From a virus: a stretch of 28,827 nucleotides of DNA. The stretch's first letter is position 1. Each line of letters opens with the position of its first letter. Positions 3,906-20,201 of this stretch are shown here, in pieces. The DNA is taken from positions 1 through 28,827 of the IMG/VR virus record IMGVR_UViG_3300046167_000003, one strand, 5' to 3'. The notes under the pieces were generated by a model. That model was given only the letters and a program-made list of their open reading frames with translations. It was not told the origin of the DNA and searched no databases. Both the position numbers and the translations under genes were made by a program.

Positions 3906-4386
3906 TAGAGAAGAAGCAGCCAAAGTAAGAATATTTATTTGGTTGGCGTTCATGGGTGCAATAATGATTACCATGATAATTGCACAACATTTACATTCAG
4001 ACGAAATGGTACACAAGTTTAAATCGCCATCATTCTCTGGCATAGGAACATCTGCACATTACCTTACTATTGAGAACCAACAGTACACTAGGAAGATGAC
4101 TGTAAAAGCAGAACTCAAAGCAATACAAGACGAGATAGAAAGAGACAAAGAGAACACAACACTAGCTAGATTTATTCGTAACCTAGAGTCAAGAATCTAT
4201 GCACAACTATCAAGACAGTTAGTAGAAAACCTATTTGGCGAGACAGCAAGTGATAGTGGTGTACTAGAGTTAGAAGGTAATAGGATAGAGTATAATGTTG
4301 TAGACGGCATAATAACTTTAAACATTACAGATTCAGATGGTAACACGACAACTATATCTCTCCCTATCGGTAGCTTTACTTTCTAG
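3886..4386 (+). CDS. CsgF-like curli assembly factor, copy 1
   Basis: In enterobacteria CsgF is a secreted partner that plugs into the CsgG pore and anchors the nucleator. This 166-residue protein has a hydrophobic export signal or anchor (about residues 14-34, VRIFIWLAFMGAIMITMII), then KFKSPSFSGIG. That matches the N-terminal CsgF stretch that inserts into the CsgG channel (FRNPNFGGN in E. coli). The C-terminal IITLNITDSDGNTTTISLP matches the CsgF ending LQLNVTDRKTGQTSTIQV. The middle is a helical segment, as in CsgF. I chose ATG 3886 (AGG 10 bases upstream) over an in-frame TTG at 3868. It overlaps the preceding gene by 20 bases and the csgG-like gene by 50 bases. Confidence 0.85.
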   Translation: MTKEKIDREEAAKVRIFIWLAFMGAIMITMIIAQHLHSDEMVHKFKSPSFSGIGTSAHYLTIENQQYTRKMTVKAELKAIQDEIERDKENTTLARFIRNLESRIYAQLSRQLVENLFGETASDSGVLELEGNRIEYNVVDGIITLNITDSDGNTTTISLPIGSFTF

Positions 4387-5152
4387 CTGTGCGTTAATAG
4401 TAGATCCTTTAGAAAACAACTTACCACCATTCCAAAAGATAGAAAAAGCAAAGATAGATTCTCTGCTTGTTCCTGGTCTTGCGAACATAAAAACATCTAA
4501 TCAAAAGAAGCCAGTCGTAGCTATCTATGCAGGTTCTTTTACAGACCAAACAGGACAAAGAAGAAGTAATAGTAACTATGCAACCTTCTCGTCAGCAGTA
4601 ACTCAAGCACCAGACGCATATCTAATTAGAGCCTTAAAACACGCAGGTAGTAACCATGATGGTTTCTTTGAAGTAGTAGAGCGAGTAGGTTTAGACCATG
4701 TAACCAAAGAACGTCAAATCATAAGAAGCGCTAGACAGCAAAATAAAAACAAACAGAAGCTACCAGATTTATTGTTCGCTGGTTTGATAATGCAAGGTGG
4801 CGTGATATCATATGAAAGTAATATAAAGAGTGGTGGTGCAGGCGCTAGATACTTAGGCATTGGAATGTCTAGGCAGTTTAAGCAAGATACTGTAACCATA
4901 TCTTTAAGAACTGTATCTGTAAGTACAGGTAAAGTGTTACTAGAAGTATTAGTAACTAAAACGATACTAAGTGCATCTATCGATCAAGATATATTTCGTT
5001 TTATTACTGACAGCACCGAACTAGTAGAAATAGAGAACGGATTAGTCAGAAACGAGTCAATCAATATAGCACTACAAACAGCAATAGAAACTGCTGTGCT
5101 ACAAACAATAAGAGAAGGAACAACCAGAGGATATTGGAATATTGATGAATAA
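4337..5152 (+). CDS. CsgG-like outer-membrane secretion lipoprotein, copy 1
   Basis: CsgG is the nonameric outer-membrane pore of the curli (type VIII) secretion system. This 271-residue protein, the usual CsgG length, has a lipoprotein signal with lipobox LLSSC (Cys18). It then follows CsgG closely: GVISYESNIKSGGAGARYLG corresponds to GSIIGYESNVKSGGVGARYFG in E. coli, then SVSTGKVL, TKTIL, FRFI, and RGYW near the end. By alignment F84 sits at the constriction Phe56, while Tyr51 and Asn55 appear replaced by Ser and Thr. The start must be ATG 4337, since the signal peptide lies there; it overlaps csgF by 50 bases in another frame. It overlaps the curlin-like gene by 8 bases. Confidence 0.93.
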   Translation: MVTRQLYLSLSVALLSSCALIVDPLENNLPPFQKIEKAKIDSLLVPGLANIKTSNQKKPVVAIYAGSFTDQTGQRRSNSNYATFSSAVTQAPDAYLIRALKHAGSNHDGFFEVVERVGLDHVTKERQIIRSARQQNKNKQKLPDLLFAGLIMQGGVISYESNIKSGGAGARYLGIGMSRQFKQDTVTISLRTVSVSTGKVLLEVLVTKTILSASIDQDIFRFITDSTELVEIENGLVRNESINIALQTAIETAVLQTIREGTTRGYWNIDE

Positions 5153-5879
5153 AAATGACACATTCGTAGTAACTTACTACAGTCTATTAGGAGTATTGTT
5201 TTTAAGTTTAAATGCTTACTCCGCAGACAACGAGATATATGTAGACCAAAGTGGTGCTACAGCTAACATAGATTTAGAACAGCTAGGATCATCTAATATT
5301 ATTGGTGGTCTAAACTCTGTTGCTGGAACGCTAACACCTTTAGATCTTGATGGCATAAACCTTACACTAGACATAAACCAAATAGGTAATACTAATAAAT
5401 TTCTTGGTGATATCTACGGAGATAACGTAACAGGATTCTTTGAGTTTGATGGAGATAGTAATACTTTTACTATACAAGGCGACCCAGATAATACTTATGG
5501 TATAGATAACTCCAACTACAATGTTGATGTTACTGGTAACTCTAATACATTTACATTAGATACAGGCACATCAGCTCTAGCGTCTGGTCTTGACCTAGAC
5601 TGGATTATTAACGGAGACAACAACACTTTTGATTTTGATATAAACTATGATGGTGCTACTAACTATGTTGATGTAGATGGGGATAGCAACAACGTAAACT
5701 TTACAGGAAGTGGCTATGCAGGAGGATATTTCTACCTTGACCAAACAGGAAACAGCAGAACATTCAATATCATCCAGTCGTCAACTCTCGCTGCTGATTG
5801 GTTACAGATTAATTCTACTGGGTCTAACGGCACTGTTTGTGTCGTTCAAAACGATGGCGGAGTCTCAACCAGCTGTTGA
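5145..5879 (+). CDS. Curlin-like repeat protein (candidate secreted amyloid), copy 1
   Basis: A 244-residue protein with a signal peptide (YYSLLGVLFLSLNAYS, likely cut before ADNE). The mature part is built of about eight short strand-turn units with Gly-Asn or Gly-Asp-Ser-Asn turns: QSGATANIDLEQLGSSN, INQIGNTNKF, GDSNTFTI, GNSNTFTL, GDNNTFDF, GDSNNVNF, QTGNSRTFNIIQ. These resemble the curlin repeat (Q-x-G-x2-N-x5-Q). The C-terminus is CVVQNDGG...STSC with two Cys. Its place directly behind csgF and csgG supports it as the exported subunit. ATG 5145 is preferred to TTG 5142 and overlaps the csgG stop. Repeats are degenerate, so amyloid formation is inferred. The FecR gene probably starts inside it, at 5716. 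Confidence 0.75.
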   Translation: MNKNDTFVVTYYSLLGVLFLSLNAYSADNEIYVDQSGATANIDLEQLGSSNIIGGLNSVAGTLTPLDLDGINLTLDINQIGNTNKFLGDIYGDNVTGFFEFDGDSNTFTIQGDPDNTYGIDNSNYNVDVTGNSNTFTLDTGTSALASGLDLDWIINGDNNTFDFDINYDGATNYVDVDGDSNNVNFTGSGYAGGYFYLDQTGNSRTFNIIQSSTLAADWLQINSTGSNGTVCVVQNDGGVSTSC

Positions 5880-8655
5880 CGTAGGAAACATATCTGAATT
5901 AACAGGTTCTGCTAGTGTTTTTAGGGAAAAGCCTTATAATGCCGAGCTAGAATTTGACATCCAACAGAACGATGAAGCTATAACTACCAATGGTCGTATG
6001 GCTATTACGTTCTTAGATGATTCAAAAGTTAAATTAACAGAAAACTCGCAGCTGACCATTGATGAATATATTTTTGACCCCAATCCCAGTAAATCTAAAA
6101 TGGCTATTACCTTTGGTCTTGGTACGGCTAGATTTATTACTGGCAATCTAAATAAGATAGATAAAAACAATATAGATCTTAAAACACCTACAGCAAACAT
6201 AGCAATACGAGGGACTGACTTTACAGTTACAGTAGACGAGACTGGAAGATCATTGCTAATACTTTTACCAGATGAGTTCGGTATATCTAGTGGCGAGATA
6301 CTAGTAACCACAGCCATGGGTACAGTAACCCTTAACAAACCCTACCAGGCAACAACTGTAGATGTCTTTGAGAAACCACCTAGCTCGCCAGTAATCTTAG
6401 ACCTATCACTAGAACTTATAGACAATATGCTTATTGTTAATCCACCTAAAGAAGAAGTGGTTATAGAAGAGTCTATACAAACCAAAAAGAAAAACATACT
6501 AGACTTTGATGGTTTAGATGAGGACTTCTTGGAAGAGGACTTTTTAGACGCAACAAAAGAACTAGAGTTTACAGAGTTAGATATAAACTACCTTGATGTA
6601 AACTTCCTAGAGGACTTGCTAGATGTCATAGACGCGCTGCAAGAAATACAACAAGAGGATCAGTTAGCACAAGATGCTACGTCTACTAATATAGTTGGTA
6701 CACAGTTAGGACAAGACTTATCCACACAAATAACATCTTTTATAACAGGACAAACACTAACGCTTATGCGTAGTGTTAGTGATACAGCTAGATTAGATAT
6801 AGACTCTGCTGGTAGCTATACTGTTATCTTTATACAAGACGGAACATCTAACATCATCAAAATAAATGGTGGTACAGGTGGTACTATCAAAATCACTCAA
6901 AGTTTAATGAAGCGACTACTATTCACCATACTTATAATACTAGTGTTGCCTTTGTTATATCAGTCAACACCAACAGAGATACTAAAGCTAAAAGTATTTG
7001 ACTATCTTGTACCCAAGCAAGATCCTTCTGGTTACTTCACAATACTAAACATAACTGAAGAAGATATAGATACAGAGGGTGGTTGGCCTATACCTAGACA
7101 AAGGCTAGGAGAAATACATAAAGAAATTATGGATGCTGGTGCTATAGGTGTGGGTTGGGTTGTAAGCTTTCCGCATCCAGATAGATTTGGTGGAGATAAG
7201 ATTTTTAGAGAATCCTTCTTACATGGTACATCTATTTTGGCTTCGTTTGAATACCCAAATCAAATATACCCAAAAACAGTTGGTACTGTCATCAAAGGTC
7301 CTGATGTTAGTGGTATGCTTTCCGAGGGTGTAGTACAGAATACTCACAACCTTAGAACTAACTATATACAAGAAGGTATATCTGCTGCACCCACCGATCT
7401 TGATAATCTTGTCAGAAGAATACCCTTACTACTAAAAACACCAGATGGTTATGTTTCTTCTTTTGGTACAGAAGTGTTAAAAGTATTAACAGGAGCTAAA
7501 ACTTACATTATCACTACGAATGATAATGGTATACAGGAAATATTAGTTAGAGGAATACCACCAGTCAAAACAGATAACCTTGGTCGTAAATGGATTAGTT
7601 GGGTAGATACTCCACAAACTGATTTACAAGAAATGAATGTTGCAGGTAAGTTTGTATTTCTTGGAATTACAGCACCAGGAATCATGCCACAAATTGCAAC
7701 TCCAGTTGGATTATTAGAACCACACAAAATTCAAGCAGCATTATCTGAGTCAATTCTTATAGAAAACTCTCCAAGGATTCCAGAATGGTCTTTAGCTGCC
7801 GAAATTGTGATTTTCGGAATTTTTGTGTCGTTGACGTGGCTTGTAATCCATTATCTCAGCATAGTTAAGGGCGTAAGCTTAGTTATAATTTTGCTCTTCA
7901 CCACGAGCTTCCTAGAAGCTTACAGCGTTTCTAAAGGTATTTTATTGGATTTTACATGGACTTTTGTATGTCAGGTTCTAATTTCTACTATTGCCTTCTA
8001 TTTAAGTTACAAAAAACAACATAAATTGCGTCAACAAATCAAAAAACAGTTTGAGCATTATCTTGATCCAAGACAAGTTAAAGAATTACAAGATAATCCA
8101 GACTTGCTAAAACTTGGTGGGGAGAAAAGATACTGCACATTCTTGTTTACAGATGTTCGTGGCTTTACAAGTTTGTCAGAAACTTTAGAACCAGAAGAAG
8201 TAACAGAAATTATGAATAAGGCTTTGACAGTCCAAGTTAATGCTGTACAAAAATTAGGCGGTATGACAGACAAGTTTATTGGAGATGCTGGTATGTTTAT
8301 ATTCAACGCGCCACTAGATTTAGATAACCATGAAGAGAAAGCTGTGCAAGCTGCAATAGATATAAGAAAAGGTATGGCAGAAGCTAACTTAGGTATAGAG
8401 ATAGGTATAGGTGTAAATACTGGTTATGCGGTTATAGGTAATATGGGTTCTGATACAAGGTTTGACTACTCTGCTATAGGTGATGCGGTCAACACAGCAG
8501 CACGTTTAGAGTCAGCAACTAAGGAAGCAGGAGTTGACATACTTATTGGCGAGGCTACAATTAAGAAAACACAGAATGGTGTTTTTCACAAGAAAATATA
8601 CGTCAAAGGAAAAAAGAAACCATTGAAGGTATATACAACAAAAGAGGAACTATAA
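5716..8655 (+). CDS. FecR-domain protein fused in frame to CHASE2-nucleotide cyclase, copy 1
   Basis: One open frame of 979 codons joins two genes that are separate in the second copy. The first ~395 residues are the FecR-domain protein (signal segment RLILLGLTALFVSFKTMA, FecR hallmark TPTANIAIRGTDF). From ATG 6907 the remaining 582 residues are the CHASE2 sensor plus three membrane helices plus class III cyclase. The fusion arises because AGTAATTAATG in copy 2 reads AGTTTAATG here, a 2-base deletion that removes the FecR stop. The cyclase ATG is retained, so independent translation is possible. As a fusion, the cyclase N-terminal hydrophobic segment would become internal. The start at 5716 follows AGGAAG at 5704; the alternative ATG 5854 lacks a Shine-Dalgarno and would lose the signal segment. 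Confidence 0.7.
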   Translation: MQEDISTLTKQETAEHSISSSRQLSLLIGYRLILLGLTALFVSFKTMAESQPAVDVGNISELTGSASVFREKPYNAELEFDIQQNDEAITTNGRMAITFLDDSKVKLTENSQLTIDEYIFDPNPSKSKMAITFGLGTARFITGNLNKIDKNNIDLKTPTANIAIRGTDFTVTVDETGRSLLILLPDEFGISSGEILVTTAMGTVTLNKPYQATTVDVFEKPPSSPVILDLSLELIDNMLIVNPPKEEVVIEESIQTKKKNILDFDGLDEDFLEEDFLDATKELEFTELDINYLDVNFLEDLLDVIDALQEIQQEDQLAQDATSTNIVGTQLGQDLSTQITSFITGQTLTLMRSVSDTARLDIDSAGSYTVIFIQDGTSNIIKINGGTGGTIKITQSLMKRLLFTILIILVLPLLYQSTPTEILKLKVFDYLVPKQDPSGYFTILNITEEDIDTEGGWPIPRQRLGEIHKEIMDAGAIGVGWVVSFPHPDRFGGDKIFRESFLHGTSILASFEYPNQIYPKTVGTVIKGPDVSGMLSEGVVQNTHNLRTNYIQEGISAAPTDLDNLVRRIPLLLKTPDGYVSSFGTEVLKVLTGAKTYIITTNDNGIQEILVRGIPPVKTDNLGRKWISWVDTPQTDLQEMNVAGKFVFLGITAPGIMPQIATPVGLLEPHKIQAALSESILIENSPRIPEWSLAAEIVIFGIFVSLTWLVIHYLSIVKGVSLVIILLFTTSFLEAYSVSKGILLDFTWTFVCQVLISTIAFYLSYKKQHKLRQQIKKQFEHYLDPRQVKELQDNPDLLKLGGEKRYCTFLFTDVRGFTSLSETLEPEEVTEIMNKALTVQVNAVQKLGGMTDKFIGDAGMFIFNAPLDLDNHEEKAVQAAIDIRKGMAEANLGIEIGIGVNTGYAVIGNMGSDTRFDYSAIGDAVNTAARLESATKEAGVDILIGEATIKKTQNGVFHKKIYVKGKKKPLKVYTTKEEL

Positions 8656-8732
8656 TGCCAAAAGGAAAAGGAACATACGGATCTAAAGTAGGTAGACCGC
8701 CAAAGAAAAAAGCTAAAAAAAATAAAAAATGA
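8655..8732 (+). CDS. 25-residue basic protein, copy 1
   Basis: ATG 8655 overlaps the cyclase stop (TAATG) and the TGA at 8730 overlaps the holin ATG (ATGA), so it is sandwiched in a coupled cistron. The product MPKGKGTYGSKVGRPPKKKA, plus a Lys/Asn tail, is extremely basic and has a GRP core with flanking Lys, an AT-hook-like pattern. It resembles a shortened version of the basic protein at 3326. Function unknown; DNA binding is inferred from composition only. An identical copy lies at 15550. Confidence 0.55.
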   Translation: MPKGKGTYGSKVGRPPKKKAKKNKK

Positions 8733-8962
8733 TTGATAAATTAATAGGTCCAGTAAGCGACATAGTTAATAAGTTAATACCTGACAAGGATTTACAAGCT
8801 AAGCTAAACCATGAACTCAAAACTGAATTACATAAAGCGAATATGGCTCAAGTTGAGATTAATAAAATTGAAGCTAGTCATAAGTCTTTATTCGTTGCTG
8901 GATGGCGGCCATTTGTCGGCTGGACTTGTGGTCTTTCCGCATCCAGACAGATTCGGTGGTGA
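8729..8962 (+). pseudogene. Truncated holin, copy 1
   Basis: The first 68 residues match the complete holin at 15624, up to RPFVGWTCG at base 8932. There the sequence switches abruptly to cyclase DNA, and nine unrelated residues (LSASRQIRW) lead to a stop at 8962. The membrane segments that follow in the full protein are missing, so this copy should not function as a holin. It marks the right edge of duplication copy 1. Confidence 0.85.
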
Positions 8963-10368
8963 TAAGTTTTTTGCAGACTCCTTCAAACATAGTACATCTA
9001 TTTTGGCTTCATTTGAATACCCAAATCAAATATACCCAAAAACAGTTGGTACTGTCATCAAAGGTCCTGATGTTAGTGGTATGCTTTCCAAGGGTGTAGT
9101 ACAGAATACTTACAACCTTAGAACTAACTATATACAAGAAGGTATATCTGCTGCACCCACCGATCTTGACAATCTTGTCAGAAGAATACCATTGCTACTC
9201 AAAACACCAGATGGATATGTAAGTTCTTTTGGTACAGAGGTATTAAAAACCTTGGTAGGTGCAAAAACTTACATCATCACAACCAATGACATTGGTATAC
9301 AAGAAATTAGTGTTAGAGGATTGCCTCCAATCAAAACAGATAGCCTTGGTCGTAAATGGATTAGTTGGGTAGATACTCCACAAACTGATTTACAAGAAAT
9401 GAATGTTGCAGGTAAGTTTGTATTTCTTGGAATTACAGCACCAGGAATCATGCCACAAATTGCAACTCCAGTTGGTTTATTAGAACCACACAAAATTCAA
9501 GCAGCATTATCTGAGTCAATTCTTATAGAAAACTCTCCAAGGATTCCAGAATGGTCTTTAGCTGCCGAAATTGTGATTTTCGGAATTTTTGTGTCGTTGA
9601 CGTGGCTTGTAATCCATTATCTCAGCATAGTTAAGGGCGTAAGCTTAGTTATAATTTTGCTCTTCACCACGAGCTTCCTAGAAGCTTACAGCGTTTCTAA
9701 AGGTATTTTATTGGATTTTACATGGACTTTTGTATGTCAGGTTCTAATTTCTACTATTGCCTTCTATTTAAGTTACAAAAAACAACATAAATTGCGTCAA
9801 CAAATCAAAAAAACAGTTTGAGCATTATCTTGATCCAAGACAAGTTAAAGAATTACAAGATAATCCAGACTTGCTAAAACTTGGTGGGGAGAAAAGATAC
9901 TGCACATTCTTGTTTACAGATGTTCGTGGCTTTACAAGTTTGTCAGAAACTTTAGAACCAGAAGAAGTAACAGAAATTATGAATAAGGCTTTGACAGTCC
10001 AAGTTAATGCTGTACAAAAATTAGGCGGTATGACAGACAAGTTTATTGGAGATGCTGGTATGTTTATATTCAACGCGCCACTAGATTTAGATAACCATGA
10101 AGAGAAAGCTGTGCAAGCTGCAATAGATATAAGAAAAGGTATGGCAGAAGCTAACTTAGGTATAGAGATAGGTATAGGTGTAAATACTGGTTATGCGGTT
10201 ATAGGTAATATGGGTTCTGATACAAGGTTTGACTACTCTGCTATAGGTGATGCGGTCAACACAGCAGCACGTTTAGAGTCAGCAACTAAGGAAGCAGGAG
10301 TTGACATACTTATTGGCGAGGCTACAATTAAGAAAACACAGAATGGTGTTTTTCACAAGAAAATATAC
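8933..10368 (+). pseudogene. Third, 5'-truncated and frameshifted copy of the CHASE2-cyclase gene
   Basis: This segment matches the cyclase from about residue 88 (FPHPDRFGGDK) to residue 565 (HKKIY), where it abuts the second curli block and meets a TGA. It lacks the N-terminal membrane segment and the start of CHASE2. The first ~410 bases differ at dozens of positions from the other two copies (for example DKFFADSFKHS for DKIFRESFLHG). From about 9346 onward it is almost identical. An extra A at 9807-9813 (seven A where the others have six) shifts the frame after KKQHKLRQQIKK, separating the membrane part from the catalytic domain, which remains open from 9823 to 10371 with FTDVRGF and KFIGDAGM intact. 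It is a mosaic relic or a chimeric join. Confidence 0.85.
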
Positions 10369-10447
10369 TGAAGTTTATAAGTAACCTTATAGATAGATTT
10401 TTAGAACGCTCTTGGCAAAGAAAAGAAGATAGACTAACCAACAAACA

Positions 10448-10798
10448 ATGAACGACATGGTAGCAATCATAACCGAGCTAGGTTTTCCTATTGCTGCTGC
10501 CCTAGGTCTAGGTATGTTTGTGTGGAAGCTAATCAATAGAATTATTGATGGCATGGAAACTAAACTTGACACCCTAGACGACAAACTCAATAGCTCCCTA
10601 GCTAACCTAGAAGATAGACTAGGCACAAAACTAGACACGCAACATGGTATCTTGGTTGCTCTCATAGATAGAGTGCGTAGTTTAGACAATGAGATAATTA
10701 GACAAGATACTATGATTAAAACTATACTTGGTGTACCGCAATTAATTAATAGCGACAAGATTGCAAAGGCAGGTAGAAATGACAAAAGAAAAGATTGA
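10448..10798 (+). CDS. Small membrane-anchored coiled-coil protein, copy 2
   Basis: A 116-residue protein identical to the one at 3555 except for Ser in place of one Asn in the coiled-coil region (DDKLNSSLANL). N-terminal hydrophobic segment, then heptad-like helix, then a basic end. It overlaps the csgF-like gene by 20 bases. The 27-residue mini-frame upstream in copy 1 loses its GTG start here because the duplication junction falls just before it. Family and function not recognised. Confidence 0.7.
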   Translation: MNDMVAIITELGFPIAAALGLGMFVWKLINRIIDGMETKLDTLDDKLNSSLANLEDRLGTKLDTQHGILVALIDRVRSLDNEIIRQDTMIKTILGVPQLINSDKIAKAGRNDKRKD

Positions 10799-11279
10799 TA
10801 GAGAAGAAGCAGCCAAAGTAAGAATATTTATTTGGTTGGCGTTCATGGGTGCAATAATGATTACCATGATAATTGCACAACATTTACATTCAGACGAAAT
10901 GGTACACAAGTTTAAATCACCATCATTCTCTGGCATAGGAACATCTGCACATTACCTTACTATTGAGAACCAACAGTACACTAGGAAGATGACTGTAAAA
11001 GCAGAACTCAAAGCAATACAAGACGAGATAGAAAGAGACAAAGAGAACACAACACTAGCTAGATTTATTCGTAACCTAGAGTCAAGAATCTATGCACAAC
11101 TATCAAGACAGTTAGTAGAAAACCTATTTGGCGAGACAGCAAGTGATAGTGGTGTACTAGAGTTAGAAGGTAATAGGATAGAGTATAATGTTGTAGACGG
11201 CATAATAACTTTAAACATTACAGATTCAGATGGTAACACGACAACTATATCTCTCCCTATCGGTAGCTTTACTTTCTAG
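10779..11279 (+). CDS. CsgF-like curli assembly factor, copy 2
   Basis: A 166-residue protein with the same sequence as copy 1 at 3886; I see only a silent difference (TCG to TCA). It has a hydrophobic export signal or anchor at about residues 14-34, then the CsgG-inserting motif KFKSPSFSGIG, a helical middle and the CsgF-type strand pair IITLNITDSDGNTTTISLP at the end. It should act in the periplasm or at the outer surface as a partner of the CsgG pore. Its last 50 bases also encode the start and lipoprotein signal of the next gene in a different frame. Confidence 0.85.
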   Translation: MTKEKIDREEAAKVRIFIWLAFMGAIMITMIIAQHLHSDEMVHKFKSPSFSGIGTSAHYLTIENQQYTRKMTVKAELKAIQDEIERDKENTTLARFIRNLESRIYAQLSRQLVENLFGETASDSGVLELEGNRIEYNVVDGIITLNITDSDGNTTTISLPIGSFTF

Positions 11280-12045
11280 CTGTGCGTTAATAGTAGATCC
11301 TTTAGAAAACAATTTACCACCATTCCAAAAGATAGAAAAAGCAAAGATAGATTCTCTGCTTGTTCCTGGTCTTGCGAACATAAAAACATCTAATCAAAAG
11401 AAGCCAGTCGTAGCTATCTATGCAGGTTCTTTTACAGACCAAACAGGACAAAGAAGAAGTAATAGTAACTATGCAACCTTCTCGTCAGCAGTAACTCAAG
11501 CACCAGACGCATATCTAATTAGAGCCTTAAAACACGCAGGTAGTAACCATGATGGTTTCTTTGAAGTAGTAGAGCGAGTAGGTTTAGACCATGTAACCAA
11601 AGAACGTCAAATCATAAGAAGCGCTAGACAGCAAAATAAAAACAAACAGAAGCTACCAGATTTATTGTTCGCTGGTTTGATAATGCAAGGTGGCGTGATA
11701 TCATATGAAAGTAATATAAAGAGTGGTGGCGCAGGCGCTAGATACTTAGGCATTGGAATGTCTAGGCAGTTTAAGCAAGATACTGTAACCATATCTTTAA
11801 GAACTGTATCTGTAAGTACAGGTAAAGTGTTACTAGAAGTATTAGTAACTAAAACGATACTAAGTGCATCTATCGATCAAGATATATTTCGTTTTATTAC
11901 TGACAGCACCGAACTAGTAGAAATAGAGAACGGATTAGTCAGAAACGAGTCAATCAATATAGCACTACAAACAGCAATAGAAACTGCTGTGCTACAAACA
12001 ATAAGAGAAGGAACAACCAGAGGATATTGGAATATTGATGAATAA
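11230..12045 (+). CDS. CsgG-like outer-membrane secretion lipoprotein, copy 2
   Basis: A 271-residue protein with the same predicted sequence as copy 1 at 4337; the DNA differs silently. Lipobox LLSSC puts the lipidated Cys at position 18 for outer-membrane anchoring. The core carries the CsgG signatures YESNIKSGGAGARYLGIG, VSVSTGKVLLEVLVTKTIL and EGTTRGYW. The family forms a nine-subunit, 36-stranded barrel with a periplasmic vestibule. No csgE homologue (periplasmic gate) is visible in the window, so this pore would rely on the host for one, work without it, or use another partner such as the 116-residue membrane protein. The stop overlaps the curlin-like start by 8 bases. Confidence 0.93.
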   Translation: MVTRQLYLSLSVALLSSCALIVDPLENNLPPFQKIEKAKIDSLLVPGLANIKTSNQKKPVVAIYAGSFTDQTGQRRSNSNYATFSSAVTQAPDAYLIRALKHAGSNHDGFFEVVERVGLDHVTKERQIIRSARQQNKNKQKLPDLLFAGLIMQGGVISYESNIKSGGAGARYLGIGMSRQFKQDTVTISLRTVSVSTGKVLLEVLVTKTILSASIDQDIFRFITDSTELVEIENGLVRNESINIALQTAIETAVLQTIREGTTRGYWNIDE

Positions 12046-12772
12046 AAATGACACATTCGTAGTAACTTACTACAGTCTATTAGGAGTATTGTTTTTAAGT
12101 TTAAATGCTTACTCCGCAGACAACGAGATATATGTAGACCAAAGTGGTGCTACAGCTAACATAGATTTAGAACAGCTAGGATCATCTAATATTATTGGTG
12201 GTCTAAACTCTGTTGCTGGAACGCTAACACCTTTAGATCTTGATGGCATAAACCTTACACTAGACATAAACCAAATAGGTAATACTAATAAATTTCTTGG
12301 TGATATCTACGGAGATAACGTAACAGGATTCTTTGAGTTTGATGGAGATAGTAATACCTTTACTATACAAGGCGACCCAGATAATACTTATGGTATAGAT
12401 AACTCCAACTACAATGTTGATGTTACTGGTAACTCTAATACATTTACATTAGATACAGGCACAACAGCTCTAGCGTCTGGTCTTGACCTAGACTGGATTA
12501 TTAACGGAGACAACAACACTTTTGATTTTGATATAAACTATGATGGTGCTACTAACTATGTTGATGTAGATGGGGATAGCAACAACGTAAACTTTACAGG
12601 AAGTGGCTATGCAGGAGGATATTTCTACCTTGACCAAACAGGAAACAGCAGAACATTCAATATCATCCAGTCGTCAACTCTCGCTGCTGATTGGTTACAG
12701 ATTAATTCTACTGGGTCTAACGGTACTGTTTGTGTCGTTCAAAACGATGGCGGAGTCTCAACCAGCTGTTGA
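12038..12772 (+). CDS. Curlin-like repeat protein (candidate secreted amyloid), copy 2
   Basis: A 244-residue protein almost identical to copy 1 at 5145; the visible amino-acid change is Ser to Thr in the DTGT(S/T)ALASG turn. Signal peptide, then about eight strand-turn units with GNSNTF- or GDSNTF-like turns and Q-x-G pairs resembling curlin repeats, then a C-terminal pair of Cys. The strongly acidic, Asn/Gly/Thr-rich composition without Lys clusters fits a secreted fibre subunit. A virion or adhesin role is an alternative. The FecR gene starts at 12609 inside its 3' end. One substitution in that overlap (GGC to GGT) is silent here but changes Ala to Val in the FecR signal segment. Confidence 0.75.
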   Translation: MNKNDTFVVTYYSLLGVLFLSLNAYSADNEIYVDQSGATANIDLEQLGSSNIIGGLNSVAGTLTPLDLDGINLTLDINQIGNTNKFLGDIYGDNVTGFFEFDGDSNTFTIQGDPDNTYGIDNSNYNVDVTGNSNTFTLDTGTTALASGLDLDWIINGDNNTFDFDINYDGATNYVDVDGDSNNVNFTGSGYAGGYFYLDQTGNSRTFNIIQSSTLAADWLQINSTGSNGTVCVVQNDGGVSTSC

Positions 12773-13802
12773 CGTAGGAAACATATCTGAATTAACAGGT
12801 TCTGCTAGTGTTTTTAGGGAAAAGCCTTATAATGCCGAGCTAGAATTTGACATCCAACAGAACGATGAAGCTATAACTACCAATGGTCGTATGGCTATTA
12901 CGTTCTTAGATGATTCAAAAGTTAAATTAACAGAAAACTCGCAGCTGACCATTGATGAATATATTTTTGACCCCAATCCCAGTAAATCTAAAATGGCTAT
13001 TACCTTTGGTCTTGGTACGGCTAGATTTATTACTGGCAATCTAAATAAGATAGATAAAAACAATATAGATCTTAAAACACCTACAGCAAACATAGCAATC
13101 CGAGGGACTGACTTTACAGTTACAGTAGACGAGACTGGAAGATCATTGCTAATACTTTTACCAGATGAGTTCGGTATATCTAGTGGCGAGATATTAGTAA
13201 CCACAGCCATGGGTACAGTAACCCTTAACAAACCCTACCAGGCAACAACTGTAGATGTCTTTGAGAAACCACCTAGCTCGCCAGTAATCTTAGACCTATC
13301 ACTAGAACTTATAGACAATATGCTTATTGTTAATCCACCTAAAGAAGAAGTGGTTATAGAAGAGTCTATACAAACCAAAAAGAAAAACATACTAGACTTT
13401 GATGGTTTAGATGAGGACTTCTTGGAAGAGGACTTTTTAGACGCAACAAAAGAACTAGAGTTTACAGAGTTAGATATAAACTACCTTGATGTAAACTTCC
13501 TAGAGGACTTGCTAGATGTCATAGACGCGCTGCAAGAAATACAACAAGAGGATCAGTTAGCACAAGATGCTACGTCTACTAATATAGTTGGTACACAGTT
13601 AGGACAAGACTTATCCACACAAATAACATCTTTTATAACAGGACAAACACTAACGCTTATGCGTAGTGTTAGTGATACAGCTAGATTAGATATAGACTCT
13701 GCTGGTAGCTATACTGTTATCTTTATACAAGACGGAACATCTAACATCATTAAAATAAATGGTGGTACAGGTGGTACTATCAAAATCACTCAAAGTAATT
13801 AA
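12609..13802 (+). CDS. FecR-domain periplasmic protein, copy 2
   Basis: A 397-residue protein. An unusually long polar start is followed by a hydrophobic export segment (RLILLGLTALFVSF in copy 1; LTVLFVSF here) and a likely cleavage site at KTMA/ESQ. Residues about 75-215 form the FecR domain: GRMAITFLDDSKVKLTENSQ, then TPTANIAIRGTDFTV, the family hallmark. Next come a Pro-containing linker and an acidic repeat region (FDGLDEDFLEEDFLDATKEL). The C-terminus (VIFIQDGTSNIIKINGG) resembles a curlin repeat. Classical FecR relays periplasmic signals to a sigma factor; here no sigma gene is present and the neighbour is a CHASE2 cyclase, so a sensor or scaffold role is inferred. ATG 12609 has AGGAAG upstream; the next choice is ATG 12747. 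The stop overlaps the cyclase ATG by one base. Confidence 0.85.
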   Translation: MQEDISTLTKQETAEHSISSSRQLSLLIGYRLILLGLTVLFVSFKTMAESQPAVDVGNISELTGSASVFREKPYNAELEFDIQQNDEAITTNGRMAITFLDDSKVKLTENSQLTIDEYIFDPNPSKSKMAITFGLGTARFITGNLNKIDKNNIDLKTPTANIAIRGTDFTVTVDETGRSLLILLPDEFGISSGEILVTTAMGTVTLNKPYQATTVDVFEKPPSSPVILDLSLELIDNMLIVNPPKEEVVIEESIQTKKKNILDFDGLDEDFLEEDFLDATKELEFTELDINYLDVNFLEDLLDVIDALQEIQQEDQLAQDATSTNIVGTQLGQDLSTQITSFITGQTLTLMRSVSDTARLDIDSAGSYTVIFIQDGTSNIIKINGGTGGTIKITQSN

Positions 13803-15550
13803 TGAAGCGACTACTATTCACCATACTTATAATACTAGTGTTGCCTTTGTTATATCAGTCAACACCAACAGAGATACTAAAGCTAAAAGTATTTGACTAT
13901 CTTGTACCCAAGCAAGATCCTTCTGGTTACTTCACAATACTAAACATAACTGAAGAAGATATAGATACAGAGGGTGGTTGGCCTATACCTAGACAAAGGC
14001 TAGGAGAAATACATAAAGAAATTATGGATGCTGGTGCTATAGGTGTGGGTTGGGTTGTAAGCTTTCCGCATCCAGATAGATTTGGTGGAGATAAGATTTT
14101 TAGAGAATCCTTCTTACATGGTACATCTATTTTGGCTTCGTTTGAATACCCAAATCAAATATACCCAAAAACAGTTGGTACTGTCATCAAAGGTCCTGAT
14201 GTTAGTGGTATGCTTTCCGAGGGTGTAGTACAGAATACTCACAACCTTAGAACTAACTATATACAAGAAGGTATATCTGCTGCACCCACCGATCTTGATA
14301 ATCTTGTCAGAAGAATACCCTTACTACTAAAAACACCAGATGGTTATGTTTCTTCTTTTGGTACAGAAGTGTTAAAAGTATTAACAGGAGCTAAAACTTA
14401 CATTATCACTACGAATGATAATGGTATACAGGAAATATTAGTTAGAGGAATACCACCAGTCAAAACAGATAACCTTGGTCGTAAATGGATTAGTTGGGTA
14501 GATACTCCACAAACTGATTTACAAGAAATGAATGTTGCAGGTAAGTTTGTATTTCTTGGAATTACAGCACCAGGAATCATGCCACAAATTGCAACTCCAG
14601 TTGGATTATTAGAACCACACAAAATTCAAGCAGCATTATCTGAGTCAATTCTTATAGAAAACTCTCCAAGGATTCCAGAATGGTCTTTAGCTGCCGAAAT
14701 TGTGATTTTCGGAATTTTTGTGTCGTTGACGTGGCTTGTAATCCATTATCTCAGCATAGTTAAGGGCGTAAGCTTAGTTATAATTTTGCTCTTCACCACG
14801 AGCTTCCTAGAAGCTTACAGCGTTTCTAAAGGTATTTTATTGGATTTTACATGGACTTTTGTATGTCAGGTTCTAATTTCTACTATTGCCTTCTATTTAA
14901 GTTACAAAAAACAACATAAATTGCGTCAACAAATCAAAAAACAGTTTGAGCATTATCTTGATCCAAGACAAGTTAAAGAATTACAAGATAATCCAGACTT
15001 GCTAAAACTTGGTGGGGAGAAAAGATACTGCACATTCTTGTTTACAGATGTTCGTGGCTTTACAAGTTTGTCAGAAACTTTAGAACCAGAAGAAGTAACA
15101 GAAATTATGAATAAGGCTTTGACAGTCCAAGTTAATGCTGTACAAAAATTAGGCGGTATGACAGACAAGTTTATTGGAGATGCTGGTATGTTTATATTTA
15201 ACGCGCCACTAGATTTAGATAACCATGAAGAGAAAGCTGTGCAAGCTGCAATAGATATAAGAAAAGGTATGGCAGAAGCTAACTTAGGTATAGAGATAGG
15301 TATAGGTGTAAATACTGGTTATGCGGTTATAGGTAATATGGGTTCTGATACAAGGTTTGACTACTCTGCTATAGGCGATGCGGTCAACACAGCAGCACGT
15401 TTAGAGTCAGCAACTAAGGAAGCAGGAGTTGACATACTTATTGGCGAGGCTACAATTAAGAAAACACAGAATGGTGTTTTTCACAAGAAAATATACGTCA
15501 AAGGAAAAAAGAAACCATTGAAGGTATATACAACAAAAGAGGAACTATAA
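13802..15550 (+). CDS. CHASE2-domain class III adenylate/guanylate cyclase
   Basis: A 582-residue membrane enzyme expected to make a cyclic nucleotide in response to a periplasmic signal. N-terminal hydrophobic segment (2-18); CHASE2 sensor (about 25-290) with FTILNITEEDIDTEGGWPIP and the GA-x-G-x-G stretch before PHPD; three membrane helices (about 297-367); linker; class III cyclase domain (about 405-560). Catalytic residues are in place: metal ligands D416 (FTDVRGF) and D460 (GDAGM), base-contacting K456, and N529/R533 in GDAVNTAARLE. The Lys with Ser522 fits ATP as substrate, but GTP cannot be excluded. The start overlaps the FecR stop by one base, so the two are coupled. Copy 1 is fused to FecR and a third copy is truncated; this one is the intact reference. 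Confidence 0.93.
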   Translation: MKRLLFTILIILVLPLLYQSTPTEILKLKVFDYLVPKQDPSGYFTILNITEEDIDTEGGWPIPRQRLGEIHKEIMDAGAIGVGWVVSFPHPDRFGGDKIFRESFLHGTSILASFEYPNQIYPKTVGTVIKGPDVSGMLSEGVVQNTHNLRTNYIQEGISAAPTDLDNLVRRIPLLLKTPDGYVSSFGTEVLKVLTGAKTYIITTNDNGIQEILVRGIPPVKTDNLGRKWISWVDTPQTDLQEMNVAGKFVFLGITAPGIMPQIATPVGLLEPHKIQAALSESILIENSPRIPEWSLAAEIVIFGIFVSLTWLVIHYLSIVKGVSLVIILLFTTSFLEAYSVSKGILLDFTWTFVCQVLISTIAFYLSYKKQHKLRQQIKKQFEHYLDPRQVKELQDNPDLLKLGGEKRYCTFLFTDVRGFTSLSETLEPEEVTEIMNKALTVQVNAVQKLGGMTDKFIGDAGMFIFNAPLDLDNHEEKAVQAAIDIRKGMAEANLGIEIGIGVNTGYAVIGNMGSDTRFDYSAIGDAVNTAARLESATKEAGVDILIGEATIKKTQNGVFHKKIYVKGKKKPLKVYTTKEEL

Positions 15551-15627
15551 TGCCAAAAGGAAAAGGAACATACGGATCTAAAGTAGGTAGACCGCCAAAG
15601 AAAAAAGCTAAAAAAAATAAAAAATGA
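15550..15627 (+). CDS. 25-residue basic protein, copy 2
   Basis: Identical to the small gene at 8655. It overlaps the cyclase stop by one base and the holin start by 4 bases. The product is Lys-rich with a VGRPPKKK core. It links the curli/cyclase module to the lysis genes in one continuous translational chain. Function unknown. Confidence 0.55.
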   Translation: MPKGKGTYGSKVGRPPKKKAKKNKK

Positions 15628-16004
15628 TTGATAAATTAATAGGTCCAGTAAGCGACATAGTTAATAAGTTAATACCTGACAAGGATTTACAAGCCAAGCT
15701 AAACCATGAACTCAAAACTGAATTACATAAAGCGAATATGGCTCAAGTTGAGATTAATAAAATTGAAGCTAGTCATAAGTCTTTATTCGTTGCTGGATGG
15801 CGGCCATTTGTCGGCTGGACTTGTGGTATTGCTCTTATGTACCATTTTCTATTACAGCCTATTATTATCTTTGGACTCTCAGCAGCTGGAATCACTTTTA
15901 TACTACCATCCTTTGACATGGGATCGTTGATGACTGTATTGATGGGTATGTTAGGACTTGGCGGATTAAGAACTTTTGAAAAAACTAAAGGAGTTGCAAA
16001 ATGA
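15624..16004 (+). CDS. Holin of the three-transmembrane, gene-transfer-agent type
   Basis: A 126-residue protein. The N-terminal half is an amphipathic helix region (LIGPVSDIVNKLIPDKDLQA). It is followed by the family signature WRPFVGWTCG and hydrophobic segments (IALMYHFLLQPIIIFGLS, then GSLMTVLMGMLGLGG). This matches the 3TM holin family known from gene transfer agents and related phages. These form inner-membrane lesions that release endolysin and time lysis. The start ATGA overlaps the 25-residue gene and the stop overlaps the endolysin start by 4 bases, a classic holin-endolysin pair. A truncated copy lies at 8729. Confidence 0.9.
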   Translation: MIDKLIGPVSDIVNKLIPDKDLQAKLNHELKTELHKANMAQVEINKIEASHKSLFVAGWRPFVGWTCGIALMYHFLLQPIIIFGLSAAGITFILPSFDMGSLMTVLMGMLGLGGLRTFEKTKGVAK

Positions 16005-16372
16005 GTTGGGATAATTTCACATTAGAAGAGTTTGCTTGTAAGCATTGTGGAGAAAACAAAATAGAACATGAGCTTATAGATGAGCTGCAAAAGCTTAGAA
16101 CTGATTGTGGTTTCCCTTTTAAGATTACAAGTGGTTACAGGTGTGGCGATCACCCTGTAGAAGTAAAGAAATCTAAACCAGGTACACATGCACTTGGATT
16201 AGCAGCAGACATAGGTGTAAGAGGTAAGCAAGCTTTAGAGATATTATCAAAAGCAAGAAACTATGGTTTTACTGGTGTTGGAGTCAATCAAAAAGGTGGA
16301 GCTAGGTTTATACACCTAGACATATCTAAAGACTCTGAAGGTAGACCAAGACCACATATCTGGAGTTACTAA
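16001..16372 (+). CDS. Peptidase M15-type endolysin
   Basis: A 123-residue zinc peptidase predicted to cut peptidoglycan stem peptides at lysis. SGYRCGDHP is followed by GTHALGLAADIG (zinc ligands His and Asp) and FIHLDIS (third ligand His), the order seen in M15 D-Ala-D-Ala-type peptidases. The N-terminal FACKHCGEN is a common Cys pair in marine-phage members. There is no signal peptide, which fits release through the holin. It overlaps the holin by 4 bases and the next gene by 1 base. Confidence 0.9.
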   Translation: MSWDNFTLEEFACKHCGENKIEHELIDELQKLRTDCGFPFKITSGYRCGDHPVEVKKSKPGTHALGLAADIGVRGKQALEILSKARNYGFTGVGVNQKGGARFIHLDISKDSEGRPRPHIWSY

Positions 16373-16612: not shown

Positions 16613-17863
16613 ATGGCAATAACATACAATCCAGAAGAATATATAGCAGCATTAGGCGACCTAACTCCTTTAGTGCGAGATGAAATGGGCGGTATGCAAG
16701 GCGTTGATATCTTAAATCAATTTGCTGGCGGTGGCGGTAGCTACAATATTCCCAATGGTGGATTTGCTAGACCTGTTGCAACAACAGACCCAACTTACAG
16801 TAGTGGTTATGACTATGCGCGTTCTATAGCTGGTGGTATGCCAATGTCACAAGTTATTGCACCAGGCGTAAGTTATTCTCCAGAACAACCAGGTGGTTAT
16901 ACACAGGCAGATCTAAATATAGCTGCTGGCATAACTCCAGCTCCACCTGTATATAAAGAACCTGATGATCCTAGCTTTTTTGGAACTGGTATCGGTGGCG
17001 TAACAATACCTGGCGGCAGAAGAGATAAGATGCCTCCACTAAGAAACATCTTTGGTAATATGCCTGCTACAGTACCTCCAGTACAAGCGCCTCCAGTACA
17101 AGTACCACCACAAGAGTTTGATATAGAGCAGATTCGTCAAGATATAGCTGATTCAGGAATAGACTTTACTAACTTGTTTGGGTTGCCACAAGCGCCAGAC
17201 TTATCACAATTTGTAACTAAAGATGATTTACCTAATGTTAGGGATTTTTCTATAGAAAATTTAGATCTTCCTGACTTCAATGAGTTTGCATTAAGAAAAG
17301 ATTTGCCTGTTTATCAAGAACCTGATTTATCACAGTTTGTAACCAAACAAGACTTACCATCATTAATACCTGATGTACCTAATGGTAGAGATTTTTCTAT
17401 AGATCAGTTTGATCTTCCAGATTTTAGCGAGTTTGCTCTAAGAAAAGATTTACCAGTATATCAAGAGCCAGACTTATCAGGTTTTGCGAGAATAGAGGAT
17501 TTACCCACATTCAATCCTGATGAGCTTAGAAAAGATATAATGATGTCTTTACCAACTTACGAACAACCAGACTTATCTGGTTTTGCAAAAATAGAAGATT
17601 TACCTACGTTTAATCCAGACGAGCTTAGGCAAGATATATTAATGTCTCTACCTGAACAAAAAATGCAAGACTTATCTGGTTTTGTGACTCAAGCAGATAT
17701 TAATAAAGCTATCTCTGGAATTAATATGCCAACTTATGAACAGCCAGACCTGTCTGCGTATGACACAAGACTTGCTGAATTAGAACAAAGTTTAGCAGCA
17801 TTACAACAACCAACTGGCGGTAGGTTTTCTATAAATCAACCACAAGTAAGGGGATTATTCTAA
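16613..17863 (+). CDS. Repeat-rich hypothetical structural protein
   Basis: A 416-residue protein of unknown family. The first ~130 residues are Gly/Pro-rich (FAGGGGSYNIPNGG) and residues 130-170 are Pro-rich. The C-terminal half holds repeated modules of the type PDLSxF(V/A)xxxDLP... with DFSIxxxDLPDFxEFALRKD and YEQPDLSGFAKIEDLPTFNP. The last ~70 residues form a short coiled coil (TRLAELEQSLAALQQ). The position between lysis and capsid genes suggests a virion or assembly protein; that is inference. The first three-quarters exist once, while its 3' end is repeated at 20727-20923 as part of the 3060-bp duplication, which begins inside one of its repeats. Confidence 0.75.
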   Translation: MAITYNPEEYIAALGDLTPLVRDEMGGMQGVDILNQFAGGGGSYNIPNGGFARPVATTDPTYSSGYDYARSIAGGMPMSQVIAPGVSYSPEQPGGYTQADLNIAAGITPAPPVYKEPDDPSFFGTGIGGVTIPGGRRDKMPPLRNIFGNMPATVPPVQAPPVQVPPQEFDIEQIRQDIADSGIDFTNLFGLPQAPDLSQFVTKDDLPNVRDFSIENLDLPDFNEFALRKDLPVYQEPDLSQFVTKQDLPSLIPDVPNGRDFSIDQFDLPDFSEFALRKDLPVYQEPDLSGFARIEDLPTFNPDELRKDIMMSLPTYEQPDLSGFAKIEDLPTFNPDELRQDILMSLPEQKMQDLSGFVTQADINKAISGINMPTYEQPDLSAYDTRLAELEQSLAALQQPTGGRFSINQPQVRGLF

Positions 17864-18130
17864 ATGTCAGTAACACACGAAGAAGTAGTTAAGGCTGCAC
17901 AAGCCGAGCAAATATTAACATCTGATGTTTTTAAAGAAGCCGTAGAAAATCTAAAACAAGAATATATAACACATTGGTTAAACTCAAGAGAGATAGCTGA
18001 TGTTAATGCTAGAGAAGATATCCACAGGTCATTATTACTATTACCAGAGGTCGAAAGGCATCTGCGTATCATTGCCGAGAAAGGTAAACTCACACAAGCC
18101 AATATTAACAAAATTAGAAATATTGGTTAA
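17864..18130 (+). CDS. Conserved hypothetical protein before scaffold, copy 1
   Basis: An 88-residue, mostly helical, charged protein (MSVTHEEVVKAAQAEQILTS). It starts one base after the upstream stop and ends 61 bases before the scaffold. It contains EAVENLKQEYITHWLNSR and VERHLRIIAEKGKLTQANIN. Small helical proteins of this size in this position in podovirus-like phages are sometimes called small terminase or head-assembly factors; I see nothing that decides. Identical protein at 20924. Confidence 0.65.
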   Translation: MSVTHEEVVKAAQAEQILTSDVFKEAVENLKQEYITHWLNSREIADVNAREDIHRSLLLLPEVERHLRIIAEKGKLTQANINKIRNIG

Positions 18131-18191
18131 ACCTTCCCTTTTTACACATTATTAAGCTAAAATACTCTTAAATACATAAGGAGTATTTATT
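18131..18191 (+). promoter_or_regulatory. Intergenic leader with candidate promoter and strong RBS for scaffold
   Basis: The 61-base gap is one of very few non-coding stretches. It holds a pyrimidine-rich run (CCTTCCCTTTTTA), then GCTAAAAT (18156-18163) as a -10-like element without a well-spaced -35, and AAGGAG at 18178 ahead of ATG 18192. The same GCTAAAAT motif occurs 7 bases before the gene at 20218, suggesting a shared phage promoter core. The sequence is repeated at 21191-21251. Confidence 0.35.
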
Positions 18192-19199
18192 ATGGCAATA
18201 ACGGATAAACCGACTGCTTTACAAACTGATAAGGAAATTACTGCCTCGATGTTTGAAAGTTTTTTAACCCCTGAAGAGGACAAGGTTGAAGAAGCGGTCA
18301 CAGAAACAGAAGAAGTAGTAGAAGAAGTTATCGAAGATGATTCTGAATTTGTTGATGAAGAAATTGATCAAGAAATTGCAGATGAGTTAGAAGATGACGA
18401 TGAAGAAGAACTGGATGAAGAACAAACCGATGTTGAAGAGGAAGCTCAGCAACCCCAAACATTTACTGTAAAAGTAGATGGTCAAGAAGTGGAGGTGACG
18501 CAAGAGGAACTCGTCAATGGATATTCTCGTCAGCAAGATTATACGCGCAAAACTCAAGAACTCTCTCAACAGCGTAAGACTATTGAGCAGCAGCAAGCAG
18601 AGTTAGCGCAAAGAGATGCGATTTATTCGCAGTTGTTACCGAAGATGGAGGCCCAGTTAAAGGGCGAATTGGCTAACGAACCAGATTGGAACACTTTGTA
18701 TGAAGATGATCCTGTTGGTTATGTTCGTGAAAAGCAGCTTTGGGATGAAAAGAAAGAGAAGTTGACTGCGGTTAGTGCTGAACAACAAAGGCTTCAACAA
18801 GAAGCACAAGTAAAACAGCAAGCACAAATTCAGCAAATAGTTGAATATGGTCAACAAAAGCTTTTAGAAATTATCCCAGAATGGCAAAATCAAGAGATTG
18901 CGTCACAAGAAAAAGCAGCTATTAGCGAATATGCCGTGAATACTTTAGGTTATACACCTCAAGAAATTCAACAGGTTTATGATTATCGTGCATTGCTTGG
19001 TTTAAGAAACGCTTGGTTAAACTCTAAAACAGTTGAAGCCACGAAGAAGAAACCAACACAAAAAGCACCAGCAAGAGTGGCTAGACCTGGGACAACTAAC
19101 CGACCTAAATCGGCAGCACCTGTAAAGAAAGCGCAACAAAGGTTGGCTAAATCTGGCAAAGTCCAAGATGCAGCTAAAGTTTTTGAACAATTAATTTAA
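18192..19199 (+). CDS. Capsid scaffolding protein, copy 1 (intact)
   Basis: A 335-residue protein with the classic scaffold layout. The N-terminal third is extremely acidic (long Glu/Asp runs around residues 30-85). A Gln/Glu-rich coiled coil follows (about residues 110-230, LSQQRKTIEQQQAELAQRD), and then a basic C-terminus (TKKKPTQKAPARVARPGTTN) of the kind that binds coat protein. It is followed 20 bases later by the major capsid gene. It guides procapsid assembly and is expelled or degraded later. The second copy at 21252 has a one-base insertion that breaks the frame, so this copy is the reference. Confidence 0.88.
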   Translation: MAITDKPTALQTDKEITASMFESFLTPEEDKVEEAVTETEEVVEEVIEDDSEFVDEEIDQEIADELEDDDEEELDEEQTDVEEEAQQPQTFTVKVDGQEVEVTQEELVNGYSRQQDYTRKTQELSQQRKTIEQQQAELAQRDAIYSQLLPKMEAQLKGELANEPDWNTLYEDDPVGYVREKQLWDEKKEKLTAVSAEQQRLQQEAQVKQQAQIQQIVEYGQQKLLEIIPEWQNQEIASQEKAAISEYAVNTLGYTPQEIQQVYDYRALLGLRNAWLNSKTVEATKKKPTQKAPARVARPGTTNRPKSAAPVKKAQQRLAKSGKVQDAAKVFEQLI

Positions 19200-19219
19200 T
19201 TTTATAAAGGAATATAAAA

Positions 19220-20155
19220 ATGGCAAAGGTAACTAACGCATTTGACACATATTCGGCAACAGCTGACAGAGAAGATCTAAGTAATATCATTTACAACATC
19301 TCTCCAATGCAAACTCCGTTTATGTCATCAATCGGAAAAAGAAATATTAAAAACGTAGTGTTTGATTGGCAGACAGAAGTCTTACCTACTCCAAGTTCAG
19401 CTGGTCAGCTAGAAGGTTTTGAGCTATCAAGATCTACTTCTACAGCGACAACTAGAGTAAGTAATGTTGCAATGATCTCATCAAGAGACGCAACTGTAAC
19501 TGGCTCACAAGACGCTTCAGACCCAGCTGGTAAAAGATCAGAAATGGCTCATCAATTAGCTATTATGGCTAAAGCATTGAAAAGAGACATGGAAGAAGCT
19601 TTATGTCAAAACGGTGCTAAAACAACTGGTGACGCTACAACAGCTAGGGTAACTGGTGGTTTTGAATCATGGCTAACATCTAACGTATCCAGAGGTTCTG
19701 GTGGTTCAGGTGCTGGTGGTGGAGCTGCTCCAGTTGACGGAACAGACAGAGACTTAACAGAAGATCTTTTAAAAGGTGTTCTACAAACTATGTTTGGTAA
19801 TGGTGCTGAGCCTTCAATGGCTATTTGTGGACCACATAACAAACAAGTTATCTCTACTTTCACTGGTAGAACTCAAGCTAGACAAATGATCGATGCAAAT
19901 ACTGTAGAAGCTTCAGTATCTGTATACTCTTCTGACTTTGGTGAACTAAAAATCGTTCCATCAAACAGATCAAGAGAAGCATCATTACTATTAGTAGATC
20001 CAGAGTTTGCTAAAGTGTCTTACCTAAGAGACTTTAAAACTGTTGATATTGCTACAATAGGCGATGCCCAAACGAAGATGATCATTACTGAGTTTGGATT
20101 GGAAGTATCTAACGAAGCCGCTCACGGAATCGTTGCTGACTTAAACGAATCATAA
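19220..20155 (+). CDS. Major capsid protein (SU10-like), copy 1
   Basis: A 311-residue coat protein. The sequence MAKVTNAFDTYSATADREDL, then NISPMQTPFMSSIGKRN, VVFDWQTEVLP and RDMEEALCQNGA follows the SU10/DUF5309-type HK97-fold capsid family; length is typical. A Gly-rich loop (RGSGGSGAGGGAAP) sits in the middle. It has an AAAGGA ribosome site 10 bases ahead and follows the scaffold. A hairpin terminator lies 17 bases downstream, as expected for a strongly expressed gene. It differs from copy 2 by silent changes and a few conservative ones near the C-terminus (GDAQTKMIIT versus GDAETKMIVT; NES versus TNS at the end). Confidence 0.92.
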   Translation: MAKVTNAFDTYSATADREDLSNIIYNISPMQTPFMSSIGKRNIKNVVFDWQTEVLPTPSSAGQLEGFELSRSTSTATTRVSNVAMISSRDATVTGSQDASDPAGKRSEMAHQLAIMAKALKRDMEEALCQNGAKTTGDATTARVTGGFESWLTSNVSRGSGGSGAGGGAAPVDGTDRDLTEDLLKGVLQTMFGNGAEPSMAICGPHNKQVISTFTGRTQARQMIDANTVEASVSVYSSDFGELKIVPSNRSREASLLLVDPEFAKVSYLRDFKTVDIATIGDAQTKMIITEFGLEVSNEAAHGIVADLNES

Positions 20156-20172
20156 GTTTAGTCAATTAGCTT

Positions 20173-20201
20173 AAAGGGATGTTTCGGCATCCCTTTTTTT
20201 T
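20173..20201 (+). terminator. Rho-independent terminator after capsid gene, copy 1
   Basis: AAAGGGATG and CATCCCTTT form a stem around a TTTCGG loop, followed by a run of T. It lies just behind the capsid stop. The same structure is repeated at 23234-23262. Confidence 0.88.

Follow-up and report, generated by a model that had tools for sequence, protein, structure and literature searches.

We analysed a stretch of viral DNA of 28,827 base pairs (bp), the IMG/VR virus record IMGVR_UViG_3300046167_000003 (hereafter the window), in which a six-gene cassette related to curli (type VIII) secretion lies among phage genes. The cassette occupies positions 10448-15550, with all genes on the plus strand and each overlapping its neighbour, and it is followed by a holin and an endolysin gene. 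An initial annotation of this DNA had described CsgF-like, CsgG-like and curlin-like genes, in this order and overlapping, between portal and lysis genes, and profile searches, homology and the layout of the open reading frames (ORFs) confirmed this description. The extent that it gave to the module, 10779-13802, does contain the csg genes but is too short for the whole cassette. Profile matches, the structure database, synteny and selection all support the identity of the locus as a phage-borne curli secretion module.

Genes of the cassette

The first gene (10448-10798) encodes a protein of 116 amino acids (aa), a small membrane protein with one hydrophobic segment and a predicted coiled coil. 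It matched phrog_18771 (E = 3e-16), is 69-100% conserved across cassettes and is homologous to the small proteins (93-115 aa) upstream of csgF in the phages HTVC008M and Melnitz. The Pfam search of this protein showed no kinase family and no kinase domain, and the 'histidine kinase' of Wittmers et al. 2022 (PMC9599517), which we equated with it by gene position, looks like a small membrane/coiled-coil protein.

The CsgF homologue (10761-11279 from a TTG start, with an ATG at 10779) matched PF10614 over residues 34-166 with 62.8 bits against a cut-off of 25.8 (E = 4.6e-17) and could be aligned with the CsgF proteins of HTVC008M and Melnitz. Its N-terminus consists of a hydrophobic signal and then HKFKSPSFSGIG, which corresponds to the N-terminal pore-binding segment. 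The CsgG homologue (11230-12045), a lipoprotein, matched PF03783 over the whole domain (residues 54-269, E = 3.6e-47) and the solved E. coli CsgG chains in the PDB (E = 2e-40), and its lipobox Cys18 is invariant across the aligned phages and E. coli. Both proteins, and Cys18 of the second, had been named correctly in the initial annotation. We also observed that OR851715.1, an unannotated record of 1,499 bp labelled 'Salmonella phage', contains a gene for a CsgG with 40% identity to that of the window; this record is possibly bacterial sequence.

The curlin-like protein (12035-12772), with a signal peptide and several repeats about 24 aa apart, is in our judgement the weakest identification among the csg genes of the cassette. 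For this protein we used a repeat profile trained only on curlins from distant myophage-type cassettes (HTVC008M, Melnitz and the contig L096), which detected several repeats in the window protein with E = 4e-6, the best of 500 shuffled sequences having E = 0.82. The window protein is also homologous to a Melnitz curlin (E = 8e-15) that is itself above Pfam's cut-off. These results argue for tandem curlin repeats in the window protein and agree with the curlin-like identity first assigned to it. The AlphaFold2 model shows repeated strand-turn-strand units, with a predicted local distance difference test (pLDDT) value of 60.

The fifth frame (12603-13802) encodes a FecR-domain protein with an N-terminal hydrophobic segment, in which the FecR domain (PF04773, E = 2.5e-10) is the only Pfam match; no sigma factor was seen in the window. 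Within the curlin gene this frame stays open over about 170 bases (12603-12772), with similar overlaps in relatives. The true start is probably further downstream than 12603, and in the alignment, shorter versions of the protein start at a segment resembling a signal. A curlin-like motif at the C-terminus of the FecR protein (QDGTSN in the window), found at the same place in other FecR proteins, was considered and rejected, its repeat-profile score being at the level of the shuffled sequences.

The last gene (13802-15550) encodes a CHASE2 adenylate cyclase (PF05226, E = 1.5e-24; PF00211, E = 7e-17). Its catalytic residues D416, K456, D460, D526, N529 and R533 are intact, and the corresponding columns are conserved in 63 of 63 sequences (62 of 63 for the Asn). 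By these residues, i.e. two metal-binding Asp, the Lys/Asp substrate pair, the Asn and the Arg, it is predicted to be a class III adenylate cyclase. The presence of a FecR protein and a cyclase in a podovirus-like genome, as initially described, is borne out by the domain matches and by the genomic context. In one HTVC023P-like phage (locus L082, 14957-15631; genome G003) an N6/N4 DNA methyltransferase gene is inserted within the cassette, between the FecR and cyclase genes.

The median ratio of nonsynonymous to synonymous substitution rates (dN/dS) was 0.07-0.18 for the six genes, all of which are under purifying selection. Because of this selection, and because the catalytic residues of the cyclase are kept, the cassette appears to be in use and not decaying.

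Carriers of the cassette and its movement between phages

The survey of phage genomes for the same gene order, which the initial annotation had suggested, gave 72 viral contigs carrying the cassette, in all of which the order is identical as far as each contig extends. We considered three lineages: A, the lineage of the window (48 contigs); B, the G011 type (9 contigs); and C, the G003 type, HTVC023P-like (6 contigs). The other 9 contigs had no lineage label. The phage carrying the window cassette is marine, podovirus-like and about 37 kilobases (kb) long; its longest relative seen, G006, has 36.9 kb with an 85-base terminal repeat. For lineage B, G011 has 52 kb with terminal repeats and a portal up to 36% identical to those of HTVC115P, HTVC033P and Roseobacter phages. 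For lineage C, G003 has 48 kb and a portal 50% identical to those of HTVC023P and HTVC027P.

The novelty implied in the initial annotation did not hold: for HTVC023P-type podoviruses and pelagimyophages this gene order, with FecR and cyclase, had already been published (PMC9599517). CsgF and CsgG in pelagimyophages had been published earlier (PMC7029224), as had the curli cluster of the OM43 phage Melnitz (PMC9004378). The HTVC023P-type module, described as moving between viral families (PMC9599517), has like the window a small protein ('HK'), CsgF, CsgG, CsgA/B, FecR and adenylate cyclase, and is without CsgC, CsgD and CsgE. Unlike that module, the window is without a second curlin gene, its first gene encodes a putative membrane/coiled-coil protein and not a kinase, and its portal and capsid are of SU10 type. 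The clusters of HTVC008M and Melnitz have the same order as the window, including FecR and the CHASE2 cyclase, with CsgG proteins 43% and 40% identical to that of the window, respectively; they differ from it in that FecR and cyclase are separated by a further, longer curlin gene and that no recognised lysis genes come after the cluster; in HTVC008M there are also two small genes related to the first gene upstream. The statement in PMC9004378 that Melnitz has no curlin genes is contradicted by the Melnitz GenBank record, which annotates two curlin repeat proteins, both above Pfam's cut-off. The curli system of E. coli (CsgG 4UV3/3X2R, CsgF, CsgA/B) shares with the window the CsgG and CsgF families, the lipobox and the curlin Q-x-G-x-x-N motifs. 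Unlike it, the window has a single divergent curlin and the additional FecR and cyclase, and the ORFs examined, within the cassette and near it, included no CsgE, CsgC or CsgD. Lineage C is the group already published. We found no earlier report of lineages A and B in the papers searched, although their proteins may have been included under Podoviridae in a published survey of the oceans. What is added here is two more carrier lineages, mobility, dispensability and the site beside lysis genes.

Among the contigs of the window lineage that span the region from portal to holin, all six genes were present in 26 loci (21 distinct contigs) and none in 27 contigs, of which 22 have a portal at least 83% identical to that of the window (up to 95%). 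The cassette is hence all-or-none at one site upstream of the holin in this lineage. Other content at this site consists of small basic proteins and a PDDEXK-like nuclease. Mutual exclusion between the cassette and this nuclease was rejected, since 22 of the 51 cassette loci examined contain both.

The lineages are mixed in the CsgG tree: its well-supported branches require no fewer than 5 changes of label for A and 3 for B, and lineage C is a single group nested among A. In genomes of the three lineages that are complete or nearly so, the cassette proteins are 65-97% identical (for the 116-aa protein, only B and C were compared) and there is little else in common. The tree and the genome comparison show that the cassette has moved repeatedly between unrelated phage lineages. 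Between G006 and G003, the FecR protein is 97% identical and the cyclase 71%, so that the cassette itself is mosaic. We also noted a 93-aa stretch 88% identical between G006 (22970-23263) and G011 (9723-10016), which adjoins the cassette upstream in lineage B, and related tail-fibre segments common to A and B; the sharing of this protein and of these segments is a hint of common hosts.

For cellular CsgG loci we considered the best 80 matches in the cellular database; in the profile search of cellular contigs, the alignment of phage CsgG proteins alone found no relative and the alignment with E. coli CsgG added did. In 76 of the 80 loci (Sphingomonadales/Erythrobacter and other bacteria, CsgG 38-46% identical to that of the window), csgG usually adjoins csgF and, unlike in the window, has in no case the small first gene, FecR or cyclase nearby. 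The other four (L090, L091, L096 and L106), which have cassette features, are contigs of metagenome-assembled genomes (MAGs) assigned to Maricaulis, Pelagibacter, Rhodobacteraceae and Pirellulales. Since L090 and L096 clearly bear phage genes, these MAG species entries probably include phage contigs; L091 and L106 are likely to come from phages too, though this is less well shown. CsgF was above the cut-off in 4 of 190 sampled alphaproteobacterial genomes. CHASE2-type cyclases are common in the alphaproteobacterial genomes sampled, and at least 6 of the 30 closest ones lie near a FecR-like gene in the short flanking stretches available. A plausible origin of the cassette would be the joining of a csg unit with a FecR/cyclase pair.

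Genomic context and duplications in the window

Besides the cassette, the window contains genes for a partial terminase, portal, holin, endolysin, scaffold, SU10-type major capsid protein, head/tail proteins and a tail fibre. By portal and capsid, the nearest isolates are only 30-52% identical and include Microcystis phage MJing1, Sinorhizobium phage phiM5, OM43 phage Venkman and Pelagibacter phage HTVC106P. The window portal, capsid and partial terminase had no tblastn match at E 1e-3 to HTVC023P (bases 1-50,000) or to 023Pt_psg01 (42 kb), and the only window proteins matching these phages were orf85, o216 and o319, at 29-47% identity. The structural proteins of the window phage do not group it with HTVC023P, and it is of a separate lineage.

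The repeats of the window had been missed in the initial annotation. A second copy of the cassette and the start of the holin (3464-8932, plus strand) is 99.6% identical to 10357-15827, and in this copy FecR and cyclase form one fused frame of 981 aa owing to a frame difference. It is followed by a third, partial and broken copy of the cyclase (8933-10368, plus strand), 96.6-96.7% identical to 7167-8601 and 14062-15496. There is also a direct repeat of about 3 kb (17655-20725 and 20715-23785, 99.1% identical) spanning the scaffold, the major capsid protein and neighbours. In other cassette-bearing contigs the stretch from portal to holin measures about 6.1-7.7 kb, with space for a single copy, and the single-copy contigs include ones 95-100% identical to the window. 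Because other contigs carry one copy, we considered the duplications of the window (cassette, cyclase and capsid region) as probable assembly artefacts.

Lysis neighbourhood and possible function

In lineage A the cyclase is followed by the three-transmembrane holin (in the window 15624-16004, plus strand; PF11351, E = 8.7e-18; phrog_3427 holin) and the M15 peptidase endolysin (16001-16372, plus strand; PF08291, E = 2e-13; phrog_894 endolysin, E = 2e-34). In lineage C it is followed by an Rz-like spanin and a lysozyme, sometimes behind a small transmembrane protein, and in lineage B by a two-transmembrane phrog_1544 protein, of a family that precedes the lysozyme in L090. In three lineages the cassette is thus immediately followed by a gene for lysis or a lysis-like function, which suggests late expression. 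Promoter and terminator scans gave results at chance level only.

On balance, we consider the region 10448-15550 to be probably a co-transcribed mobile curli secretion cassette, carried as optional phage cargo, for late export of amyloid from the dying cell. Precisely, the six genes would be transcribed together and, like the structural and lysis genes, expressed late. CsgG and CsgF would make up a pore in the outer membrane of the infected cell, and through it the curlin-like protein would be exported and assemble into amyloid on the dying cell or on debris from it. FecR, as an exported protein, and the CHASE2 cyclase could together act as a periplasm-to-cytoplasm sensor raising cyclic AMP. 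The likeliest benefit would be local, with neighbouring cells clumped or envelope debris coated and progeny reaching new hosts.

Several observations weigh against this interpretation. The window curlin-like protein had no significant Pfam match, so that among the three csg genes only CsgF and CsgG were matched in Pfam; sister curlin sequences also matched Curlin_rpt weakly (best E = 0.047), and to judge the curlin by Pfam alone would give a false negative. Foldseek, run with the low-confidence curlin model, gave no significant PDB relative. CsgE is absent from the ORFs examined, and the constriction loop of CsgG is unlike that of both E. coli and the sampled cellular CsgG proteins, for which reason substrate and gating could differ. 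Finally, no clumping was seen in Melnitz-infected cultures (PMC9004378), which speaks against aggregation at least in Melnitz and could make debris coating or a subtler effect likelier than gross clumping.

As an alternative, the CsgG pore, with or without CsgF, could depolarise or open the outer membrane late in infection, as or with a pinholin or spanin. Such an aid to lysis was proposed for Melnitz in PMC9004378 and agrees with the lysis-side position in lineages A, B and C and with weak matches of the small first protein to holin PHROGs. We consider it unlikely: the 27 sister contigs without the cassette keep the holin/endolysin block, the HTVC023P-like lineage owns a spanin and a lysozyme beside the cassette, the annotated neighbours in HTVC008M and Melnitz are not lysis genes, and a pore alone leaves the selected curlin repeats, FecR and cyclase unexplained. 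In fact, lysis does not depend on the cassette as an essential component, since phages without it keep the same holin and lineage C has a spanin besides, and the existence of close sister phages wholly without it makes an essential part in lysis or host entry unlikely.

Somewhat less likely still is a block of superinfection, in which amyloid or a changed outer membrane would hide receptors from competing phages. The cassette is optional, as exclusion genes often are, and the hindrance of phage adsorption by curli matrices in biofilms is a hypothesis discussed in PMC9599517, but a site among late genes beside lysis genes suggests late expression, with little time for exclusion. An uptake channel, in which CsgG without CsgE gating would take up a nutrient or cofactor while FecR and cyclase adjust host metabolism, was proposed in PMC9599517 and PMC7029224 and fits with the lack of an identified CsgE; it leaves unexplained a conserved CsgF and curlin repeats under purifying selection, and we regard it as very improbable. 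The joining of bacterial DNA to phage genes in a chimeric contig, which the assembly-like duplications of the window might have suggested, was rejected, being in effect refuted by dozens of independent contigs that share the phage-cassette junctions, by the portal-module-holin order in many single-copy contigs, by the three carrier lineages and by the lack of the other cassette genes at the nearest cellular csg loci. We favour late amyloid export over the lysis pore, the superinfection block and the uptake channel because of the late position of the cassette together with its dispensability for lysis. A more tentative proposal is that this mobile late amyloid cassette, placed just before lysis blocks that are unrelated to each other, acts at the time of lysis or later, e.g. 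by coating debris or tethering new hosts.

The all-or-none pattern at a single genomic site provides natural pairs of near-identical phages with and without the cassette, and the conserved place of the cassette next to lysis genes of different kinds yields a hypothesis on timing; these pairs and the conserved lysis-side site make the function testable and argue against an essential role in lysis. That one cassette has passed repeatedly between unrelated phages suggests that these have hosts in common and that the cassette brings a real advantage under selection. If the cassette does act at or after lysis as proposed, curli secretion would be a strategy of the phages themselves and not an unchanged loan from bacteria.

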